Source of the DNA: a virus
Length of the DNA: 22,531 bases
Strand: one strand, 5' to 3'
IMG/VR virus record: IMGVR_UViG_3300027971_000240
Span: 1-22,531 of that record
Part shown: positions 14,482 to 22,531 of the stretch, in pieces
Position numbering within the stretch: the first letter of the stretch is position 1
Layout: the number at the start of each line of letters is the position of its first letter
The notes under the pieces: model-generated
Database searches by the model: none
Seen by the model: the letters and a program-made list of their open reading frames with translations, nothing else
What the model was told of the DNA's origin: nothing
Made by a program: the position numbers and the translations under genes

Positions 14482-14669
14482 GGTCGTCTTGCCTCCTGTA
14501 GGATTTCAATCCGCTCGCGGGATGCCCGCAAGGCCGTGTAGCGCTGGTGCAGTCGCTCCAGCACAGACACTCGTTTGCCAGACTCACGTTCATGGGTCAG
14601 CATCTCCAGAACCTTGGCCTCATCCAAGGTTTTGAGTTCAGCGTTTAGTTTTCGCCAAGTGATTTCCAA
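14478..14669 (-). CDS. 63-aa charged helical protein, TTG start
   Basis: The start is TTG at 14669-14667, supported by GGAGA 7 bases upstream; no ATG lies near. The product is strongly helical and charged (EITWRKLNAELKTLDEAKVL, ERLHQRYTALRASRERIEIL), probably a helical hairpin or coiled coil. It overlaps the upstream 55-aa gene by 32 bp in another frame, and the downstream gene by ATGA. The unusual start may lower its translation. Function unknown. Confidence 0.7.
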   Translation of the reverse strand: MEITWRKLNAELKTLDEAKVLEMLTHERESGKRVSVLERLHQRYTALRASRERIEILQEARRP

Positions 14670-14805
14670 TTTTTGTCTCCAGTTTAGCTATCAAGTCAAT
14701 GTGGTGCTGTAACGTGCGCGCAGCGGCGTTAGCGTCTTTGCGGTGAATTTTCACTATAGATCGCGCCGCTTTGAGTTGCGCTTTCCACAGGTCTAGTCTG
14801 GTCAT
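14638..14805 (-). CDS. 55-aa basic helical protein, unknown
   Basis: ATG at 14805-14803 overlaps the helicase stop (ATGA), with GGAGG 8 bases upstream inside the helicase gene; TGA at 14640-14638. Product starts MTRLDLWKAQLKAARSIVKI and continues HRKDANAAARTLQHHIDLIA, a basic amphipathic helix pair ending KTKR. The strong ribosome site and coupling to the helicase support expression. The net positive charge fits nucleic-acid contact, but no family is recognised. Its 3' end overlaps the next gene by 32 bp in a different frame, an unusually long overlap for this operon. Confidence 0.66.
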   Translation of the reverse strand: MTRLDLWKAQLKAARSIVKIHRKDANAAARTLQHHIDLIAKLETKIGNHLAKTKR

Positions 14806-16139
14806 TTAAGTTCCTCCATTGCAATATCCGACACCGCCCGCTTGTCATGCAAGGCAGCAAAAATTTTCTCGTCAACCGTTTTGTTGGTCAGCATCACGTA
14901 GCACCACACAGCGTGTGCTTGGCCTGAGCGGTGCAAACGACCAATGGTTTGTTCGTACAACTCCAAACTCCACGGCAGGGACAGAAACACCATGTGACAC
15001 CCACCAAACTGGAGGTTGAGCCCGTGGCCGGCTGACTTTGGATGGACGGCCAGTAGCCTGACTTGTCCTGCATTCCATCGCTCGATGGCTCGGTCGTCGT
15101 CAAGGGTTGTGACGTTGAACCGGCGCTTGAGTTCGGCAAGCTCTTCTTGGTACTGGTAAACAATGATGGTATTTGCGTGTTGGTTCTCATCAAGCAACTC
15201 CTCCAAGCGATCAAATTTGTGCGGGCTAAACCAGACCGCAGTTGTAGTAGAGTCAAACTTGCCGGGTACGTCAGACGCTGTTTTGCGTGTGTCGTAAACG
15301 AACCCGCTGGCCATTTGTTGCAACTTGCCGGTCACCACGCCCGCATTTATCGCAGTGACGTCCAGCGCTTGAAAGTCCTTCTTCATCTTTTCGTAGGGCT
15401 TGCGGTCGCTCAGGTCGCAGCGCACCTCGACGACGTGCAACGGGGGCAGCTTGTCTTTGTACTCGCCCGGTTCCAATACAAACGTCGCTGGCTTGATCTT
15501 GTCCATGACCTTGGCCAGTGAGCCGACCCGTGGCGCCCACTCGCCAAACTCCTTGTTGATCAGCACGAAATACTGCTGCATGAACGCGCCCTTGGCGCGG
15601 CCAAGCAAGCTCTGGTCAACGATCTTGCACTGGCCGAAGACGTCCTCCAAGCCGTTGCTGGTGAAGCTGCCGGTCAAGCCCCAGCGAATGGGCACGTCTT
15701 TGATGATCTTGTCGAACGCCTTGAAGCGCGCGCCTGATGGGTTCTTTAATTTTGTGAGCTCATCAAACACCAGCCCGTCCACCGGCAGGCCGTCGCCGGT
15801 AACGTCGCAAACGCCGGCCAGCCATTGCAAGTTGTCGTAGTTGATGACGATCACATTGGCGTCGCTGCTGAACACATCGTTGCGCTGCTTAGGCGTGCCG
15901 ACCGCAATGGCCAGCTTCAGGTTCTTGCTCCACTTGGGCGCTTCGATAGGCCACACGTCGGTGCAGACGCGCTTGGGCGCCACAACCAACCAACGCTTGA
16001 CGTGGCCGTCTTTGATCATGGCGTCCATGGCGGTGAGCGTGATCGCTGTTTTGCCAGCACCGACCGGAGCCAGCACCATGGCGCGGTCGTGCTCGTACAA
16101 AAAGTCAGCGGCCTGCTCTTGATAGGGCCTAAGCTGCAT
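14802..16139 (-). CDS. SNF2-type (SF2) DNA helicase/translocase
   Basis: 445 aa, a compact phage SNF2-family ATPase with both RecA-like domains and no accessory domain. Visible motifs: LRPYQEQA (3-10), Walker A APVGAGKT (24-31, K30), motif Ia VVAPKRV (52-58), motif II FDEL (125-128, D126 and E127, where the classical box is DEAH), motif III LTGSF (155-159), motif V SAGHGLNLQ (369-377) and motif VI QTIGRLHRSGQ (397-407) with its arginine fingers. It would use ATP to translocate on duplex DNA, probably in replication or recombination. In phages this gene regularly accompanies VRR-NUC, PolA, DUF2800 and primase genes; the same set is found here on both sides of the divergent promoter. It overlaps the gene before by 11 bp and the gene after by 4 bp. 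Confidence 0.93.
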   Translation of the reverse strand: MQLRPYQEQAADFLYEHDRAMVLAPVGAGKTAITLTAMDAMIKDGHVKRWLVVAPKRVCTDVWPIEAPKWSKNLKLAIAVGTPKQRNDVFSSDANVIVINYDNLQWLAGVCDVTGDGLPVDGLVFDELTKLKNPSGARFKAFDKIIKDVPIRWGLTGSFTSNGLEDVFGQCKIVDQSLLGRAKGAFMQQYFVLINKEFGEWAPRVGSLAKVMDKIKPATFVLEPGEYKDKLPPLHVVEVRCDLSDRKPYEKMKKDFQALDVTAINAGVVTGKLQQMASGFVYDTRKTASDVPGKFDSTTTAVWFSPHKFDRLEELLDENQHANTIIVYQYQEELAELKRRFNVTTLDDDRAIERWNAGQVRLLAVHPKSAGHGLNLQFGGCHMVFLSLPWSLELYEQTIGRLHRSGQAHAVWCYVMLTNKTVDEKIFAALHDKRAVSDIAMEELK

Positions 16140-16323
16140 TGTTCCACTCAGCGGCGATTTGTTTCGCGTGCTGTTCGTCTGTCACCACCGCGCCAGGCTT
16201 GTCCGGGAACGTCAACACGTTCAAACCATTGCGGTTCATCACGCCCCACCAACCCATATCGCCACCAAGGCTTTCGGCACGGTAAGGCGGGAACGCAAAA
16301 TACTTAGCGGGTAATCCATCCAT
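16129..16323 (-). CDS. 64-aa protein between nuclease and helicase, unknown
   Basis: The start at 16323 (MDGLPAKYFAFPPYRAESLG) is preferred to one 30 bases further upstream because AAGGAG lies 7 bases before it. The protein has aromatic and glycine-rich stretches (GGDMGWWGVMNRNGLNVLTF) and a helical C-terminus (TDEQHAKQIAAEWNNAA). No cysteine pairs or nuclease motifs. It overlaps the VRR-NUC gene by 20 bp and the helicase by 11 bp, so all three should be produced together; it could be a small partner of either enzyme. Function unknown. Confidence 0.7.
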   Translation of the reverse strand: MDGLPAKYFAFPPYRAESLGGDMGWWGVMNRNGLNVLTFPDKPGAVVTDEQHAKQIAAEWNNAA

Positions 16324-16573
16324 CAATCTGCTCCTTAGTCCACAAACACGCATAGCGCTGGTTCAGCAGTGCCATGTCCGACATAAAAATTTTTTGCAAG
16401 GGCGACAACCTGCCACCCTTGGTCTTCAACTCCACGAACCATGTCGTGCCATCTGGCAGGCAGGCGATCCGGTCAGCCACACCTTTGCGCCCTGGGCTGG
16501 TGAACTTCCACGTCTTGCCGCCCCTGCGCTCCACAGTCCAGACGAAGTATTTTTCGATTTCTTTTTCAAGCAT
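16304..16573 (-). CDS. VRR-NUC domain endonuclease
   Basis: 89 aa, the size of stand-alone phage VRR-NUC proteins. Motif residues in order: E3/E6 in the first helix, PGRKGVADRI (28-36 region, D34 as the metal ligand), WFVELKTKGG (45-54, E48 and K50) and LSPLQ (Q60). These form the PD-(D/E)XK-type active site used for Holliday-junction-like or structured DNA cleavage. First gene of the minus operon. No Shine-Dalgarno site precedes ATG 16573, and a promoter -10 ends only 7 bases upstream, so its transcript is likely leaderless. It is paired with the SNF2 helicase two genes downstream, a recurrent phage replication pairing. Confidence 0.92.
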   Translation of the reverse strand: MLEKEIEKYFVWTVERRGGKTWKFTSPGRKGVADRIACLPDGTTWFVELKTKGGRLSPLQKIFMSDMALLNQRYACLWTKEQIDGWITR

Positions 16574-16580
16574 GTCAAAA

Positions 16581-16591
16581 AGTTTAGCACA
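16581..16591 (-). promoter_or_regulatory. Extended -10 promoter for the minus operon
   Basis: On the minus strand the element reads TGTGCTAAACT, an extended -10 (TGn plus TAAACT). The ATG of the VRR-NUC gene follows after only TTTTGAC (7 bases), so transcription would begin on or next to the ATG. No consensus -35 lies 17 bases upstream (that position reads TAGCAC and is part of the opposite promoter), as expected for extended -10 promoters. Confidence 0.55.
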
Positions 16592-16602
16592 CTTTTATTT
16601 TT

Positions 16603-16613
16603 TGTGCTACAGT
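16603..16613 (+). promoter_or_regulatory. Extended -10 promoter for the replication operon
   Basis: The element reads TGTGCTACAGT: TGn followed by TACAGT at 16608-16613. It is the near mirror image of the minus-strand element at 16581-16591 (9 of 11 bases the same), forming a perfect TAGCACA/TGTGCTA inverted repeat with an 11-base A+T-rich centre. Transcription would start near 16620, giving a leader of about 27 bases to ATG 16647 with an AAAGGA site. The inverted repeat could also be an operator. Confidence 0.55.
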
Positions 16614-16646
16614 CAAGGCTCATCAACTTAACTAAAGGACATTTCA

Positions 16647-16937
16647 ATGAAACATCTTCTCTTGACTTTGTTGGCTGCCGCCTCTGTGGCGCACGCCGAC
16701 AATTTTGCCGAAACCGACAACCAGGCGGGCGGCAAGATCACCATCATGACTGACGTGTGTGAGGCTGACAAAGCACAGTCCCGCGCTTACTTCTACACCC
16801 GTGACGGGCTGACTGAAGAAGGCTGCTGGAAGTACGATGCTGAAACAATCGTCATCGTCTGGGAACGCCAGGGCAAGCGCCGCTATCCCATCAACATGTT
16901 CTCGCTCATGGGCGGGTATCGTAAATTTAAAGGTTGA
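16647..16937 (+). CDS. Secreted small protein with signal peptide, unknown
   Basis: 96 aa. The N-terminus MKHLLLTLLAAASVAHA is a clear Sec signal peptide with a likely cut after AHA (residue 17), leaving about 79 residues in the periplasm. The mature part has two cysteines (in MTDVCEADK and EEGCWKYD) that could form a disulfide, and beta-strand-like segments (AETIVIVWERQGKRRYPINM). The layout resembles small exported hypothetical proteins of phages and bacteria. As first gene of the early operon it may act on the envelope, for example in superinfection exclusion, but that is speculation. AAAGGA lies 8 bases before ATG 16647. Confidence 0.76.
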   Translation: MKHLLLTLLAAASVAHADNFAETDNQAGGKITIMTDVCEADKAQSRAYFYTRDGLTEEGCWKYDAETIVIVWERQGKRRYPINMFSLMGGYRKFKG

Positions 16938-16942
16938 ATCAA

Positions 16943-17101
16943 ATGGAACTGAAAATCACCACCAAAGAAGCAGAACAAATTCTGCTGGAATGGGCGCAAG
17001 CCAGATTCCCAGATGCCTTCAATTCAGTAGAAATCAAAACCTACACTTACAGCGGCGAAATCAAATTCACTAAAGAGGAAACACAAGATGCAGCACAGTA
17101 A
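16943..17101 (+). CDS. 52-aa acidic protein, unknown
   Basis: ATG 16943 follows the previous stop by 5 bases; TAA at 17099-17101 lies 14 bp inside the next gene. The protein begins MELKITTKEAEQILLEWAQA and has a second half of beta character (FNSVEIKTYTYSGEIKFT) ending in Glu/Gln-rich residues. The helix-then-two-strands pattern and the 14-bp overlap match other small genes here. The ribosome site is weak (AGGTTGAATCAA upstream), suggesting coupling to the previous gene. Function unknown. Confidence 0.66.
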   Translation: MELKITTKEAEQILLEWAQARFPDAFNSVEIKTYTYSGEIKFTKEETQDAAQ

Positions 17102-18209
17102 CATTGTTGGCGGCTCGACTGCCAAGCGCGTCATCAACTGCCCAGGCTCAGTGGCCTTGGTGCAAAAGATGCCGCCCCAGCCCAGCAACAAATACGCCGA
17201 TGAGGGCACGCTGTTGCACAACGTCATCGCTGAGATCGTGATGAGCGACAACCCGCCCGAGCACTACTTGGGCACCAAGTACGAAGACCAAATGCTCACG
17301 CAAGAGTTGATCGATAACAAGCTCAAAGTGGCCATGGCCGCGCTTGATGAGATTGACCCAACCAAGGAGATGGAAATTGAAGCTGAAACTCGCGTTGGCT
17401 TTGGCGATCTACTGCCTGGTGTGTTTGGGTCTACTGACCTTATCGGACGTATCAGAAACCGTGCAATTGTTCTTGATTGGAAGTTTGGTGATGGTGTTGC
17501 TGTGGAAGTAGAAGAGAACCCGCAGCTCATGTTCTACGCCGCCGCAGCCATGCGCACTGAAGCCGCCAAATGGGCGTTTGAAGGCGTTGATGAGATCGAG
17601 TGCGTGATCGTGCAGCCGCCACAGGTCAAGCGCTGGGTGACCACACCTAAGCGCATCGCTGAGTTTGAATTGCAGTTGGTGCAAGCCGTCAAGCTGGCGC
17701 AAAAGCCAGACGCTGAACTCAAGACCGGCGACCACTGCCGCTGGTGCGCAGCCAAGCCCATTTGCCCACAGATGACCGGCGCTGTTGACCGGGCGTTGAA
17801 GACGCAGATTGAGTCAATTGATGCGCCGGCACTTGGCGCGTACTTGGCCAACGCTGACATGCTAGAAGATTGGATTAAAGATTTGCGTGCGCTGGCGCAC
17901 CAAATCCTTGACAGCGGGGCGTCAGTTCCAGGGTATAAACTTGTGGCCAAGCGTGGCACACGTCAGTGGCTGGACAACGAGAAGGCCGCTAACGCATTGC
18001 TTAATATGGGCTTCTCACCCTACAAAGAACCCGAGGTCATTTCTCCAGCGCAAGCGGAGAAGGAACTCAAAAAGAGCAAGTTGGCGCTGCCCGACGATCT
18101 CGTCGTGTCAGTGTCATCAGGCACCACCATAGCGCCGGAGAGCGATCCCCGGCCTGCGGTGATTCAAATCGGGAAGCAGTTAACTGCAGCCCTTTCTAAA
18201 ATCAACTAA
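17088..18209 (+). CDS. DUF2800-type RecB/Cas4-like nuclease, probable Fe-S protein
   Basis: 373 aa. Order of motifs: GGSTAKRVINCPGS with C18; EGTLLHNVIAE (39-49) with H44; GVFGSTDLIG (111-120) with D117; IVLDWKFGDG (127-136) with D130 and K132; ENPQLMFYA (143-151) with Q146 and Y150. This is the RecB-family PD-(D/E)XK nuclease series. A C-terminal cluster GDHCRWCAAKPICPQM supplies C217, C220 and C226; with C18 it gives the one-plus-three cysteine arrangement that binds a 4Fe-4S cluster in Cas4/AddB-type nucleases. It would process DNA ends in replication or recombination. GAGGAA precedes ATG 17088. Membership of DUF2800 is inferred from motifs and from the usual neighbours (SSB-like gene, PolA, primase, SNF2, VRR-NUC). 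Confidence 0.87.
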   Translation: MQHSNIVGGSTAKRVINCPGSVALVQKMPPQPSNKYADEGTLLHNVIAEIVMSDNPPEHYLGTKYEDQMLTQELIDNKLKVAMAALDEIDPTKEMEIEAETRVGFGDLLPGVFGSTDLIGRIRNRAIVLDWKFGDGVAVEVEENPQLMFYAAAAMRTEAAKWAFEGVDEIECVIVQPPQVKRWVTTPKRIAEFELQLVQAVKLAQKPDAELKTGDHCRWCAAKPICPQMTGAVDRALKTQIESIDAPALGAYLANADMLEDWIKDLRALAHQILDSGASVPGYKLVAKRGTRQWLDNEKAANALLNMGFSPYKEPEVISPAQAEKELKKSKLALPDDLVVSVSSGTTIAPESDPRPAVIQIGKQLTAALSKIN

Positions 18210-18217
18210 GGACTATC

Positions 18218-18847
18218 ATGTCAAATTTAGTAGCGTTCTCTCAAGCGGGCTTGCCCGCAGTCTCCACCCTCTCAACCGCTTTGCGCGCGATCCAAGCAGA
18301 CGTGGGCCCAGCCGGCACAGTCATCCTCAAGATGGACAAGACTGGCCACTGGGTCTTCGGTGCCGATCAGACCGAAGTGGAAGACGACTCCACCTGGGCC
18401 ATCAATCCTTTCTCTTTTGTCCACGGCTTCATTGCCTGGGGCGATGGTGAAGTGCTGGCCGAGAAGATGGCGTCGGTGTCCCAACCGTTGCCCGAGCTTG
18501 ATGAAGCGCCCCCAGGTGCTAAAAAAGGCTGGGAGACACAAGTGGGCATGAGCCTCAAGTGCATCAGCGGTGAAGACAAGGGCATGGAAGCGCGGTACAC
18601 CACCACGTCAGTGGGCGGCAAACGCGCTGTGCAGACCTTGGCTGTAGCGTTGGCAGAGCAGGTCGAAAAAGACCAAGCAAAACCAGTGGCAATTGTGAAA
18701 CTCAAAAAGGATCACTACGCCCACAAGAGCTACGGCAAAATCTACACCCCGGTGTTTGAGGTGCAAGAGTGGGTCAGCATGGACGGTGAGCCTGAGGTCG
18801 CCGTTGAAGCACCCGCGCCAGCAGGTCGTCGTCGTCGGTCGGCATAA
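18218..18847 (+). CDS. Protein in the DUF2815 / ssDNA-binding slot, unknown family
   Basis: 209 aa. Located between the DUF2800 nuclease and polymerase, where comparable phages carry a DUF2815 single-stranded-DNA-binding protein. The protein has strand-rich segments (GTVILKMDKTGHWVFGAD, GWETQVGMSLKCISGEDKG), conserved-looking WAINPFSFVHGFIAWGDGE (about 67-85), and KLKKDHYAHKSYGKIYTPVF (about 167-186), all compatible with an OB-like fold. Its tail is basic (GRRRRSA) rather than the acidic tip of bacterial SSB. AAGGA lies 6 bases before the start. The family is not recognised by sequence; the role is inferred from position. The frame remains open for 37 codons beyond its TAA. Confidence 0.72.
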   Translation: MSNLVAFSQAGLPAVSTLSTALRAIQADVGPAGTVILKMDKTGHWVFGADQTEVEDDSTWAINPFSFVHGFIAWGDGEVLAEKMASVSQPLPELDEAPPGAKKGWETQVGMSLKCISGEDKGMEARYTTTSVGGKRAVQTLAVALAEQVEKDQAKPVAIVKLKKDHYAHKSYGKIYTPVFEVQEWVSMDGEPEVAVEAPAPAGRRRRSA

Positions 18848-18961
18848 TTAACCCTGGGGGGGGTTGTTAAGACAGCGTTCGAGGATGGCGACGCGCAGGA
18901 TTTTCTGGCTTTCTCCTGCGCCTTGTTGAAGCCCAAATTGAGACCCCCACCTACACAGTAG
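18848..18961 (+). other. 37-codon open stretch in frame with, and after, the stop of the 18218 gene
   Basis: The longest gene-free stretch in the window (18848-18968). After the TAA at 18845-18847 the same frame continues open to TAG at 18959-18961. Past a G8 tract (18856-18863) it reads VVKTAFEDGDAQDFLAFSCA then LLKPKLRPPPTQ, which looks like genuine protein. It has no ATG, GTG or TTG start and no ribosome site. It could be a decayed small gene, a stop-codon read-through extension, or a small gene whose start was lost through a homopolymer error at the G8 tract. Not called as a CDS. Confidence 0.35.
18893..18921 (+). other. 8-bp perfect hairpin in the intergenic stretch
   Basis: GCGCAGGA at 18893-18900 pairs perfectly with TCCTGCGC at 18914-18921 around a 13-base loop rich in T and C. 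No T run follows, so it is not a standard intrinsic terminator. It may slow RNA decay or affect expression between the SSB-slot gene and the polymerase block, or may be chance inside former coding sequence. Confidence 0.4.
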
Positions 18962-18968
18962 AGTAAAA

Positions 18969-19103
18969 ATGGACAAATGTAACTACTGCGGCGCAGTGGA
19001 ATCTGAGGTAGCAATCCTGTTCCGCTGCATATGCGCGAATTGCTATTCAGCCGCGCCGTTTGAACTTAGACGAAAAATAATTGAAGACGCGGCGGCCAAA
19101 TGA
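18969..19103 (+). CDS. 44-aa zinc-ribbon miniprotein
   Basis: ATG 18969 to TGA 19101-19103, overlapping the polymerase start as ATGA. The sequence begins MDKCNYCGAVESEVAILFRC, then ICANCY, giving C4, C7, C20, C22 and C25: two CxxC pairs about 15 residues apart, the spacing of a small zinc ribbon, followed by a charged helix (PFELRRKIIEDAAAK). It probably binds zinc and may contact the polymerase or nucleic acid. The ribosome site is weak (AGAG). The coupled junction with the polymerase and the ordered cysteines support a real gene; function unknown. Confidence 0.72.
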   Translation: MDKCNYCGAVESEVAILFRCICANCYSAAPFELRRKIIEDAAAK

Positions 19104-21010
19104 CACTCTGGGTAGACTTTGAAACCCGTAGCGCCTGCGACCTAAAAGCCGCAGGCGTTTACAACTACGCTCAAGATGCAAGTACCGAAGTGCTGTGCAT
19201 GTCTTACGCTTTTGATGACGAAGACGTCCAGACATGGCTGCCTGACCAACCCTTTCCCGCTGAAGTGTTAAATTACAAAGGTGTAATTTACGCCCACAAC
19301 GCCGCTTTTGAGCGCCTAATTTTTTGGTATGTGTTGCAGATCAACTTTGATCTGGAACAGTTCTACTGCACCGCCACCCAGGCCCGCGCCAACTGCGCGC
19401 CGGGTAGCCTTGAGGACGTGGGGCGCTTTGCTGGCGCGTCTATGAAGAAAGACCATCGCGGCTCGCAATTAATCCGCTTGCTGTGCATACCGCCATTTCG
19501 CAACGACCCTGAGCTCATGGCCGAGATGGTGGCTTATTGCGAACAAGACGTCCGCGCCATGCGCTCGATCAGCAAGGCGCTGCGGCCACTGTCTGCGGAC
19601 GAACTGCTGGACTACCACGTCAACGAGCGCATCAACGACCGGGGCGTCTTGGTCGATGTGCCCTTGTGCAAGGCGGCCATCAAGTACGCCAGCGATGAGC
19701 TCATTGAAATCGAGCAGATCGTGGCCGAGGTCACCGAAGGCGCTATCACCAGCGTGCGCAGCCCCAAGATGCGCCAGTGGGTGATCGAGCGCGTGGGCCC
19801 GCAAGCCCTCAAGCTCATGGAGACCTACAAAGACGGCGAGATGAAATATTCGATTGACAAAACTGTCAGGGCCAATTTACTAAACTGTGAGGATGTCCCA
19901 CCTTATGTTCAAGAAGTCATCCAGTGCGCCGACGACCTTTGGGCGTCGTCGGTTGCGAAGTTCAGCCGCCTTGCAAGCCTGGCAGATGTCGAGGACAACC
20001 GAGTACGAGGCGCGTTTGTATTCGCAGGCGGCAGCGCCACAGGCAGAGCCAGCAGCTATGGAGCCCAGGTTCACAATTTCACTCGCAAGTGCGCCGAATC
20101 GCCCGAAGACGTTAGAACTGCAATGGTCAGAGGCCATTCAATTGTTCCTCGATTTGGAAAGCGCGTTACTGATGTCCTCAAGGGGATGCTCAGGCCCGCA
20201 CTGATCCCCGCCAAGGGTAAGTCCTTGGTCGTGGCCGATTGGGCGGCGATAGAGGCCCGTGCCAACCCCTGGCTCTCAGGCCGAGGTGAAAACAAACTGG
20301 AATTATTTCGCACGGGCGAAGACGTATATAAAGTCAATGCCGCCGCGACTTTTGGCGTACCTTACGCAGAGATTACAAAAGACCAACGCCAGATTGGCAA
20401 GGTGCAAGAGCTCGCCTGCGGTTTTGCCGGTGGCGTGGGCGCCTTCGCTGCCATGGGCCGCGCCTATGGCGTGCAGCTCACCGAGTTTGAATCTAAGCGC
20501 ATGGTAGACGCATGGCGCAGGGCAAACCCGTGGTCGGTGCCTTACTGGCAAAACCTTGAAGAAGCCTACACCCGCGCCATGCGCAACAAGGGCCATGAGT
20601 TTAGCGCGGGCCGGGTCACCTATATGTTCGACGGCCAGCATCTCTGGTACGCTCTGCCCTCCGCGCGAGTGCTCTGCTATCCATTTGCCAAGCTGGACGC
20701 CGATGGTGTGACCTACGCCAAGGCCGCTTGGAAACCAGCAGCAGACGCAAAAGAATGGCCGCGTGCAAGGCTTTGGAAAGGCTTGGCGTGTGAGAATATC
20801 ACGCAAGCCACCGCCAATGATTTGCTGCGCCATACGCTGCGCCAGCTTGATGACGTGGTGCTCCACGTCCATGACGAGGTGGTCATTGAGACCGACCGGC
20901 CGGAGGAAATGGCCGTGCGGTTAAAAGAGGTGATGTGTACGCCACCACCATGGGCCAAGGGCTTGCCCCTTGACGCAGAGGTAAACATAATGGAAAGGTA
21001 CGGAAAATGA
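19100..21010 (+). CDS. Family A DNA polymerase with 3'-5' exonuclease
   Basis: 636 aa. Exonuclease domain: DFETRS (D6, E8), YAHNAAFER (64-72, with N67) and YCEQD (146-150, D150), the DEDD-type proofreading set. Polymerase domain: TGRASS (314-319), motif A VVADWAAIEARANPWL (377-392; D380, E385), motif B RQIGKVQELACGFAGG (430-445; R430, K434, F442) and motif C LHVHDEVVIE (588-597; H591-D592-E593). It lacks a 5'-3' exonuclease, as usual for phage PolA proteins. At the site matching E. coli F762 a Leu (L438) is seen and F442 takes the Y766 place, by my motif alignment. It would be the phage replicase. The ATG overlaps the zinc-ribbon stop, and the TGA overlaps the next start. Confidence 0.96.
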   Translation: MTLWVDFETRSACDLKAAGVYNYAQDASTEVLCMSYAFDDEDVQTWLPDQPFPAEVLNYKGVIYAHNAAFERLIFWYVLQINFDLEQFYCTATQARANCAPGSLEDVGRFAGASMKKDHRGSQLIRLLCIPPFRNDPELMAEMVAYCEQDVRAMRSISKALRPLSADELLDYHVNERINDRGVLVDVPLCKAAIKYASDELIEIEQIVAEVTEGAITSVRSPKMRQWVIERVGPQALKLMETYKDGEMKYSIDKTVRANLLNCEDVPPYVQEVIQCADDLWASSVAKFSRLASLADVEDNRVRGAFVFAGGSATGRASSYGAQVHNFTRKCAESPEDVRTAMVRGHSIVPRFGKRVTDVLKGMLRPALIPAKGKSLVVADWAAIEARANPWLSGRGENKLELFRTGEDVYKVNAAATFGVPYAEITKDQRQIGKVQELACGFAGGVGAFAAMGRAYGVQLTEFESKRMVDAWRRANPWSVPYWQNLEEAYTRAMRNKGHEFSAGRVTYMFDGQHLWYALPSARVLCYPFAKLDADGVTYAKAAWKPAADAKEWPRARLWKGLACENITQATANDLLRHTLRQLDDVVLHVHDEVVIETDRPEEMAVRLKEVMCTPPPWAKGLPLDAEVNIMERYGK

Positions 21011-21347
21011 ACGACCCAAAGTACAAATTCGGCGACACTGATCGCCTTTATCACCGGGGGGGGAATACTTCATCGACGAAAACGAGCCCGTCATGGTGCT
21101 ACGGGGCAAGGACGTGACGTGTCTGGCTGCGGTTTGCGCATATGTGCAAGCGTTGCTTGACATGAGCGAAAACGAAGTGGTCAATAGTCACTTGGACTCA
21201 AGCCTAGAACGCCTGCGGGTGTTTTATGAGTATCAGACCACCAGTGGAGTGGCAGGCGTGGGTTGCTCCCAAAAGCATCATTCAGGATCAGAGCAATATA
21301 TTGCAAAGACCGAAGCGCTTTTGCGTGAGCTTCGCATAATCAGTTAA
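21007..21347 (+). pseudogene. 113-aa small gene interrupted at a G8 tract (frameshift, slippage or sequencing error)
   Basis: The ATG at 21007 overlaps the polymerase stop (ATGA) and encodes MNDPKYKFGDTDRLYHRGG, then the frame runs out shortly after a G8 tract at 21056-21063. Going back one base at that tract restores EYFIDENEPVMVLRGKDVTC and continues without a break to TAA 21345-21347. EYFIDENEPVMVLRGKD joined to a long helical part, then TTSGVAGVGCSQKHHSGSEQ, looks like one intact protein of 113 residues; nine G's would restore it. Options are a sequencing error in the homopolymer, a true mutation, or -1 ribosomal slippage on the G run. If broken, a shorter product from ATG 21093 (84 aa) could still be made. 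Function unknown. Confidence 0.7.
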
Positions 21348-21353
21348 ATAAAA

Positions 21354-21373
21354 AGCCCGCTGGCAGGCGGGCT
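21354..21373 (+). terminator. Strong hairpin between the interrupted gene and primase (attenuator or terminator)
   Basis: AGCCCGC at 21354-21360 pairs with GCGGGCT at 21367-21373 around the loop TGGCAG. It is preceded by AAAA and followed by CTTAAAGG, so the T tract is poor for plus-strand termination; on the minus strand the hairpin is followed by T's. It lies 17 bases before the primase start and may partly attenuate transcription or process the mRNA. Confidence 0.55.
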
Positions 21374-21390
21374 CTTAAAGGAGAGACATT

Positions 21391-22531
21391 TTGGAATTTC
21401 TGGATTTTATTACAAAACTCGCCCCAAGTGGCGAGACGGCGCTAATTGTCAGACAAAAACCACAGTTAAAGGACGGCGAGATACAACTCCACGCCGATGG
21501 GGCCGTCAAGTGTACGTGGCCGGCATTCCTGCCCGCCAAGGGCACGCGCGAGGGTCAGGCGTGGTACGCCAACACGGCCAGCTTTATCATTGACCGATTT
21601 GCCGAGGGCCGGGTGTCAGCGTCGGCGGCCAACTGCGAATACATCCTGGTGATGATGCTGGACGACATCGGCACCAAGTCCAAGACCCCGCCGCTTGACC
21701 CGACTTGGATTATGGAGACCTCTCCCGGTTCATTTCAGTGGGGCTACGCCTTCAGCGACCAGCCGACCAAAGCCGAGTTCAGCGCGGCCATCAAGGCCAT
21801 CGCCGAGGCGGGCTACACCGACCCCGGCGCCTGCAACCCGGTGCGCAACTTCCGACTGCCTGGGTCGGTCAACCTCAAGCCTGGCCGCGATAACTTTGCC
21901 GCCCGCCTGGTGGAGTTTGATTCAAACAGAGAATACACACTAGGTGACATTTGCGCCGCCTTGGGTGTCACACCAGTGGAGCCCGACTCGCTCACCCTGC
22001 GCCCGATCCGCATCTCAGACGACGGCGCGGACGATGTGATGGCGTGGCTCAGTGGCCAAGGTCTGCTGCTCTCCAAACCCAATGGCGAGGGCTGGGCAGG
22101 TGTGATCTGCCCCAATGGTGCCGAGCACACCGATGGCAACCCAGAGGGGCGCTACATGCCCGCCAACCGGGCGTATTGTTGCCTGCACTCGCATTGCGTT
22201 GACTTCGATTCCCGCGCCTTTCTGACGTGGGTCGCCGACCAAGGTGGCCCCGCTCACACCCCCGGCTTGCGCGAGGAACTGCTGACCCAGGCCATGGAGT
22301 CAGCTTTGAGTAAGTTAGCACCGACCGCTGAATACCCCGATGAGGCCGCTCGCGTCATCGCCGAGGTGGAGCGCAAAGAGTTGGGCCGCATTGAGAAAAA
22401 CGAATGGTTTGAGCGCTTTGCTTACGTCCAGACCGATGACGCTTTTTTCGACATGACCGACCGCCGGGAGGTGTCGCGCAACACCTTCAACGCCCTGTAC
22501 CGGCACATCGACTGCAAGTCGATTCACAACG
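21391..22531 (+). CDS. Primase (AEP/VirE-type primase-helicase), 5' part, runs off window
   Basis: At least 380 residues, open to the window end. The TTG at 21391 is taken as start because AAGGAG lies 7 bases before it and no ATG is near. Motifs: LDDIGTK (90-96; D91 and D92, probable metal-binding pair of an archaeo-eukaryotic-type primase), ETSPGSFQWGY (109-119), RNFRLPGSVN (152-161), and a zinc-binding-like set ICPNGAEHT (239-247; C240, H246) with CCLHSHC (263-269; C264, C269). This series is what I know from phage primases that carry a D5/VirE-type helicase at the C-terminus, which would lie beyond the window. It would make primers and probably unwind DNA for the PolA upstream. Translation may be limited by the TTG start and the hairpin before it. 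Confidence 0.85.
   Translation, partial: MEFLDFITKLAPSGETALIVRQKPQLKDGEIQLHADGAVKCTWPAFLPAKGTREGQAWYANTASFIIDRFAEGRVSASAANCEYILVMMLDDIGTKSKTPPLDPTWIMETSPGSFQWGYAFSDQPTKAEFSAAIKAIAEAGYTDPGACNPVRNFRLPGSVNLKPGRDNFAARLVEFDSNREYTLGDICAALGVTPVEPDSLTLRPIRISDDGADDVMAWLSGQGLLLSKPNGEGWAGVICPNGAEHTDGNPEGRYMPANRAYCCLHSHCVDFDSRAFLTWVADQGGPAHTPGLREELLTQAMESALSKLAPTAEYPDEAARVIAEVERKELGRIEKNEWFERFAYVQTDDAFFDMTDRREVSRNTFNALYRHIDCKSIHN

Follow-up and report, generated by a model that had tools for sequence, protein, structure and literature searches.

What is the role of a 33-bp site with mirror-image arms that lies at the point where two sets of phage replication genes diverge: is it a pair of promoters, a switch between the two sets, an operator, or an origin? 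The site occupies positions 16581–16613 of a stretch of viral DNA of 22,531 nucleotides (IMG/VR record IMGVR_UViG_3300027971_000240), and "the window" hereafter denotes that whole stretch at its full length. Profile matches broadly uphold the gene names given in an initial annotation of this DNA (SNF2, VRR-NUC-like endonuclease, PolA and primase-like), and the genes flanking the site are the following:

14802–16139, minus strand: SNF2-type helicase of the leftward operon (PF00176, 43.5 bits)
Minus strand, listed between the endonuclease and the SNF2 helicase: 74-aa ORF among the leftward genes
16304–16573, minus strand: 89-aa VRR-NUC-like endonuclease, the first leftward gene, predicted to be leaderless (PHROG 93, E 3e-25)
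16647–16937, plus strand: 96-aa protein with a signal-peptide-like N-terminus, the first rightward gene, in an exchangeable slot
17088–18209, plus strand: DUF2800/PD-(D/E)XK exonuclease (PF10926, 202 bits; PHROG 69, exonuclease)
Plus strand, listed between the DUF2800 exonuclease and PolA: 209-aa protein among the rightward genes
19100–21010, plus strand: family A DNA polymerase (PolA) of the rightward operon (PF00476; PHROG 17)
Plus strand, listed after PolA: 84-aa ORF among the rightward genes
Plus strand, running off the end of the window: primase-like ORF (PHROG 4861, E 3e-7; RepB_primase just below cut-off)

The 89-aa endonuclease scores 19.5 bits against the Pfam VRR_NUC profile, under the cut-off of 23.8, and the 96-aa protein that opens the replication operon has no Pfam or PHROG match. 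Further to the right, a GC-rich hairpin (GCCCGCTGGCAGGCGGGC, window positions ~21350–21385) lies just ahead of the primase-like ORF and is kept in relatives; read on the minus strand, it has T residues after it and resembles a terminator. Matches in genome contigs come from three metagenome-assembled genomes, one each of Betaproteobacteria, Rhodoferax and Burkholderiales, and hence the host is probably a Burkholderiales bacterium.

Two outward-facing extended −10 elements in reciprocal overlap

The predicted elements of the site and of its immediate flanks are arranged as follows:

16574–16580, minus strand: gap of 7 nt from the leftward −10 to the start codon
16581–16591, minus strand: leftward extended −10, TGTGCTAAACT (TRTGn at 16591–16587, hexamer TAAACT at 16586–16581), the VRR-NUC/SNF2 promoter
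16584–16589, plus strand: weak −35 of the rightward promoter, TTAGCA, with an 18-bp spacer, read from the sequence inside the leftward extended −10
16592–16602: AT-rich center of 11 bp between the arms, part of the spacer in both promoters
16603–16613, plus strand: rightward extended −10, TGTGCTACAGT (TRTGn at 16603–16607, hexamer TACAGT at 16608–16613), the DUF2800/PolA promoter
16614–16646, plus strand: predicted rightward start (~16618–16622) and 5′ leader, with a ribosome-binding site (RBS), AAAGGA, at 16636–16641

The two outward-facing 11-mers described in the initial annotation proved exact in coordinates and letters, with identity at 9/11 positions. Its further statement that each −10 occupies the −35 zone of the other promoter is likewise confirmed, which makes this an overlap of the pLS20 type discussed below. 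The consensus for extended −10 σ70 promoters is TRTGn followed by a TA...T hexamer, and on each strand of the site a TG stands one base upstream of such a hexamer. By comparison, the −35 elements are poor: TTAGCA, 18 bp upstream of TACAGT, agrees with TTGACA at 4/6 positions, and the leftward candidate that can be read, GTAGCA, at 3/6. Hence, both promoters would be of the extended −10 kind. A stock σ70 scan of the window did not report the pair, whose −35s are too weak for that scan.

The pattern TGTGCTANANT, which was drawn up after the site was seen, has two matches in the window against 0.13 expected, a number that 1/100 shuffles reached. A divergent TRTGNTANNNT pair 0–40 bp apart arose in 0/300 first-order Markov genomes and in 0/20,000 Markov spacers of the same composition. 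The comparative evidence for the promoter pair, to which we now turn, is much stronger than these chance figures.

Conservation of the site among relatives

When the nuclease, the DUF2800 protein and the helicase served as protein queries, each yielded 80 loci, many of them on shared contigs; to these we added one phage record, three genome loci and the loci from a DNA pattern scan. One locus-gathering step dropped four loci for short upstream sequence and four in which the match began after residue 3; 10 loci were left out for having less than 90 bp upstream. Merging of identical nuclease-plus-upstream sequences resulted in 165 distinct loci with at least 90 bp upstream. The pattern scan, in which an 11-bp center was demanded, hit at least 116 places. 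Among the matches listed, 110/116 lie directly upstream of the nuclease gene at three standard distances, two (L313 and L341) have another gene between the site and the nuclease, and four are without a detectable nuclease; of these last, L338 and L353 bear this site close to where the stored sequence stops, and L268 and L345 appear to be fortuitous matches to the pattern.

The type-A core, the pattern for which demands TG and TA...T in both arms, is present in 130/165 distinct loci, with the pattern-scan part of this count taken among the matches listed. Because the pattern-scan loci were selected on the 11-bp center, we also give the count for the protein-search loci of virus and phage records, which leaves out both these and the genome loci: here, the core is found in 86/119 distinct loci. 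The remaining 33/119 comprise 29 loci labelled type B, two type-A variants (L046 and L156) and two gene-inserted loci (L078 and L211). Thus, the possibility that close relatives keeping both operons had lost the repeat, on which the initial annotation would have foundered, was mostly answered in its favor, and most loci without the type-A core carry a different overlapping promoter pair.

Sequence divergence at silent sites provides a yardstick for this retention. We compared 82 loci with 81 distinct nuclease genes, excluding pairs with fewer than 15 comparable fourfold sites. In pairs with a mean nuclease fourfold-site identity of 17% (121 pairs) or 29% (397 pairs), the type-A left arm is 91–94% identical, the right arm 90–92%, and the gap from the −10 to the ATG 97–100%. 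As the arms are conserved where the fourfold sites have diverged, the pair is likely to be functional rather than a product of chance, and its conservation points to more than recent ancestry alone. It is true that many of the relatives are close and that the counts are not independent; but the arms remain alike even in pairs with saturated fourfold sites, and the first genes and center sequences differ. We therefore find it exceedingly improbable that the site results from a coincidental resemblance or merely reflects recent common descent.

Tolerated variation and match searches favor promoters over an operator or an origin

All 128 type-A loci with an 11-bp center reduce to 49 distinct 33-mers. 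In these, the minus arm takes two forms only, TGTGCTAAACT (41) and TGTGTTAAACT (8), which differ only at n, and the plus arm has TG and TA...T in 49/49 and TRTG in 47/49; given that the defining pattern demands TG and TA...T in both arms, these constancies are partly built in and it is the free positions that are informative. The plus arm varies at −17, −16 (the R), −13 (the n) and the inner hexamer positions across the 49 distinct sites, and its invariant columns in the 44 distinct site-plus-flank sequences from protein-search loci are the TG, the TA and the last T. The minus arm shows stricter conservation than an extended −10 would call for: its R is always G and its inner hexamer is fixed. 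The columns of TTAGCA (16584–16589) are also invariant in the protein-search loci except for 16587. Within this element, the A at 16586 (plus strand), which is kept in 49/49 distinct type-A sites and also demanded by the pattern, gives the minus hexamer its first T and spoils the TTG of the plus −35. This base may reflect a compromise made in favor of the minus −10, the TRTGn then carrying the plus promoter.

The center is less conserved in base sequence than the arms. Its length is 11 bp in 128/130 type-A loci, many of them pattern-selected for 11 bp, and 6 bp in two; among the type-A loci from protein searches it is 11 bp in 84/86. By eye, the variants L046 and L156 have centers of 12 bp and 1 bp, respectively. 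Such a near-fixed length is more than independent extended −10s require, and could hint at a protein lying across both arms or at use of the −35. In L077 the center GAAAATAAAAC corresponds exactly to the common type-A center GTTTTATTTTC in reverse complement, as if flipped once, and deep relatives such as L295 have an A-rich center too.

These patterns bear on the proposal, made in the initial annotation, that the inverted repeat TAGCACA-N11-TGTGCTA is an operator, which would be bound by a dimeric regulator. The inverted arms, the nearly fixed 11-bp center and the nearly invariant left arm are all in keeping with it. However, the pairs 16587/16607 and 16590/16604 match in 26/49 and 38/49 distinct sites, respectively; none of the 11 arm pairs has a Watson–Crick-compensated change in the 49 distinct 33-mers; neither of the two double changes at 16587/16607 yields a base pair; and the changes sit at positions that an extended −10 leaves free. 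The 6-, 12- and 1-bp centers of some relatives, the type-B loci without the repeat and the lack of an HTH_3 family match in 21 records also speak against an operator. Both arms are kept across relatives, but they vary independently. The extended −10-type variation and the absence of compensated arm changes together favor overlapping divergent σ70-type promoters, and an operator appears quite improbable to us.

A further possibility is that a replication origin or DnaA-type site marks the divergence point. The DnaA box consensus is TTATnCACA, which the TTTAnCACA of the site resembles, the free position of the site coincides with the n of the box, and the GC skew changes sign at ~16.5 kb. Yet the site fails TTATNCACA even at one mismatch, the one-mismatch matches to TTATNCACA in the window number 9 against 15 expected, i.e., fewer than by chance, and the coding strand switches at the same point as the skew. 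We regard this reading as very improbable.

Two other candidates were rejected. In whole records, TRTGNTANANT is rare outside the site, where it matches both arms in 14/20 records and the minus arm alone in two more; its third recurrent match lies on the antisense strand, over the initial codons of the primase gene, which argues against a phage-wide promoter family. As for an RNA element, there is no Rfam match in 14500–22531, and both predicted transcripts begin outside the repeat.

An alternative architecture with a predicted shared −35

Type-B relatives keep the plus −10 and are missing the minus extended −10. Their middle is TTGCACAA, TTGTACAA or TTGACAA, which can be read as a −35 in either direction, and type B thus appears to share a palindromic −35 between its divergent promoters. 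As −35 elements, the TTGACAA forms score 5/6 on the minus strand (TTGTCA) and 6/6 on the plus strand (TTGACA); the TTGCACAA forms are weak, with 3/6 on the minus strand, and most type-B minus −35s score 3/6 only. A near-consensus minus −10 (TATACT, TATATT or TATTAT) lies 6–8 nt before the same ATG in 29/29 type-B loci, a range that is partly built in because the −10 was taken as the best hexamer 5–9 nt upstream; L162 is counted as type B though its leftward −10 is ambiguous. The type-B-like loci L078 and L211 have an AAAGGA-type site ahead of their inserted gene.

On an SNF2 tree of 138/165 loci (the 27 without a near-full SNF2 being left out), the labels A and B need five changes; as its root is unsure, we make no call on which type is older. 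Type B (e.g., L080 and L071) has ~16 bp more than type A in the segment that separates the nuclease ATG from the shared −35, and several type-B loci have CATGT twice there, 16 bp apart. Deletion or duplication between these short repeats could interconvert the two types.

A predicted leaderless nuclease message and exchangeable neighbors

At σ70 promoters, transcription starts about 7 nt past the hexamer. In 127/130 type-A loci an ATG lies exactly 7 nt past the minus −10; these include 12 loci with a different N-terminal extension of the nuclease, as well as L313, in which an inserted gene begins at that same, putatively leaderless, ATG. The three exceptions (L106, L159 and L341) have a different inserted gene with its own RBS at a normal distance after the same −10. 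A gap of 7 nt has no room for a leader with an RBS, and none is present ahead of the nuclease ATG. Given this fixed distance, the nuclease mRNA should be leaderless across type A, with the leftward RNA starting at or within ~2 nt of the ATG; this prediction is absent from the initial annotation.

On the other side, the rightward start codon is 28–37 nt after the −10 in 127/130 type-A loci, i.e., those with a callable rightward start and RBS, the three without a callable start being dropped. The rightward RNA would carry a ~25-nt leader with an RBS. This 5′ leader (CTCAATCAACTAAAGGAGAGT in many relatives) is well conserved, and leaders like it (ATCAACAACAGGAG) are found ahead of genes inserted to the left, as in L341.

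The genes behind the promoters are exchanged. Twelve first-gene families (blastp, E 1e-4) stand behind the plus promoter in 127 type-A loci, and the family of the window's 96-aa protein accounts for 8/127. On the leftward side, genes are inserted downstream of the promoter in six loci (L106, L159, L313, L341, L078 and L211), none of which has anything between the two promoters. These loci serve as natural controls for where the leftward promoter lies, and L338 probably also has a gene inserted between this promoter and the nuclease.

A shared start point or a switch

Based on the above comparisons, we consider it quite likely that the 33-bp site acts as a compact early promoter for both directions, with two outward-facing extended −10s that would be recognized by the σ70-type RNA polymerase of the host. 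With each −10 lying in the weak −35 zone of the other, the TRTGn motif, and not the −35, would position the polymerase at each promoter. The predicted start sites are 45–49 bp apart, and given the general size of the RNA polymerase footprint, a polymerase on one promoter would cover the other, so that the two should not be occupied together. Mutual occlusion would follow from this geometry, as judged from the distance. The overlap could then hold the two replication operons in an approximate ratio instead of making a two-state switch.

We found no T7-type RNA polymerase (phage T7 control, 1e-109), HTH_3 regulator (controls positive in 14/14) or integrase (PF00589, with working controls) in 21 records including the window, of which MW202483.1 is annotated as complete and the others are uncultivated and of uncertain completeness, the window itself being a 22.5-kb fragment. 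A lysogeny switch was rejected on the grounds that neither integrase nor HTH_3 is found in these records. Together with the literature precedents, these absences lead us to favor a constitutive, ratio-setting shared promoter.

The initial annotation had instead proposed a direct switch between the two operons. In the form that needs RNA polymerase only, the overlap would exist to make the two replication operons alternate during infection: the geometry would force mutual exclusion, and the promoters overlap in both types A and B and are never separated in classifiable loci despite the exchange of flanking genes. Nevertheless, no regulator of the HTH_3 family turned up in the 21 records to throw such a switch, and systems with known overlaps behave otherwise: five E. 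coli bidirectional promoters compete little at basal strength, and strongly only with one direction strengthened or activated (PMC12825309), and both pLS20 Pc/Pr (PMC4207663) and EcoRV (PMC5333194) switch through a regulator. Moreover, both operons look like replication genes, which would have no obvious reason to alternate. A toggle of this kind thus seems unlikely, and the site probably serves as a compact start point common to both operons, and not as a novel type of switch. One might go further and suppose that selection keeps the promoters interlocked for its own sake, by two solutions and through swaps of the flanks, with occlusion alone balancing the operons without a regulator and the nuclease message leaderless throughout; we offer this tentatively, as a conceivable but doubtful extension of the shared-promoter reading.

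Comparison with known systems

In phage lambda, cI, transcribed from PRM, is a phage gene with its start codon at the transcription start, as predicted here for the nuclease. Unlike the present pair, the divergent promoters of lambda are further apart and under the control of CI and Cro at operators. A limited search of the open-licence literature, covering titles and the openings of abstracts, found no description of this site, and the nearest counterparts of its geometry come from other systems.

In the Bacillus plasmid pLS20, the promoters Pc and Pr have the same reciprocal coincidence of −10 and −35 in the assignment favored by the authors, Pc has an extended −10, and RNA polymerase sits on Pc or Pr only (PMC4207663). 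Unlike here, however, that system pairs a strong promoter with a very weak one and works with a DNA loop and the regulator RcoLS20, and Pc is located 461 bp upstream of its gene (PMC4207663). In the phage site, both −10s are extended and nearly symmetrical, one transcript is predicted to be leaderless, and no HTH_3 regulator was found in the 21 records. The bidirectional promoters of E. coli and Salmonella similarly use a near-symmetric sequence to drive divergent transcription and are defined by starts 7–25 bp apart and reciprocally overlapping −10s (PMC12825309, PMC10268837); the phage site falls outside that definition, with predicted starts 45–49 bp apart and an overlap of −10 with −35. 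In the EcoRV and CfrBI restriction–modification systems, too, the divergent core promoters partly overlap, such that polymerase cannot bind both; unlike here, EcoRV is under C protein control and its C transcript is not leaderless (PMC5333194).

In light of the reciprocal geometry of pLS20 Pc/Pr and the overlapping divergent core promoters of EcoRV, the initial annotation overstated the case in calling the arrangement unusual. The geometry has precedents; the novelty resides in the depth of its conservation, the predicted leaderless partner and the alternative with a shared −35. With two architectures, spacing variants, an inverted center and swapped neighbors, these loci constitute a natural test bed for asking whether selection favors overlapping divergent promoters or whether genome compactness merely brings the overlap about. 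They also predict that the nuclease message is leaderless in a large group of uncultivated phages.
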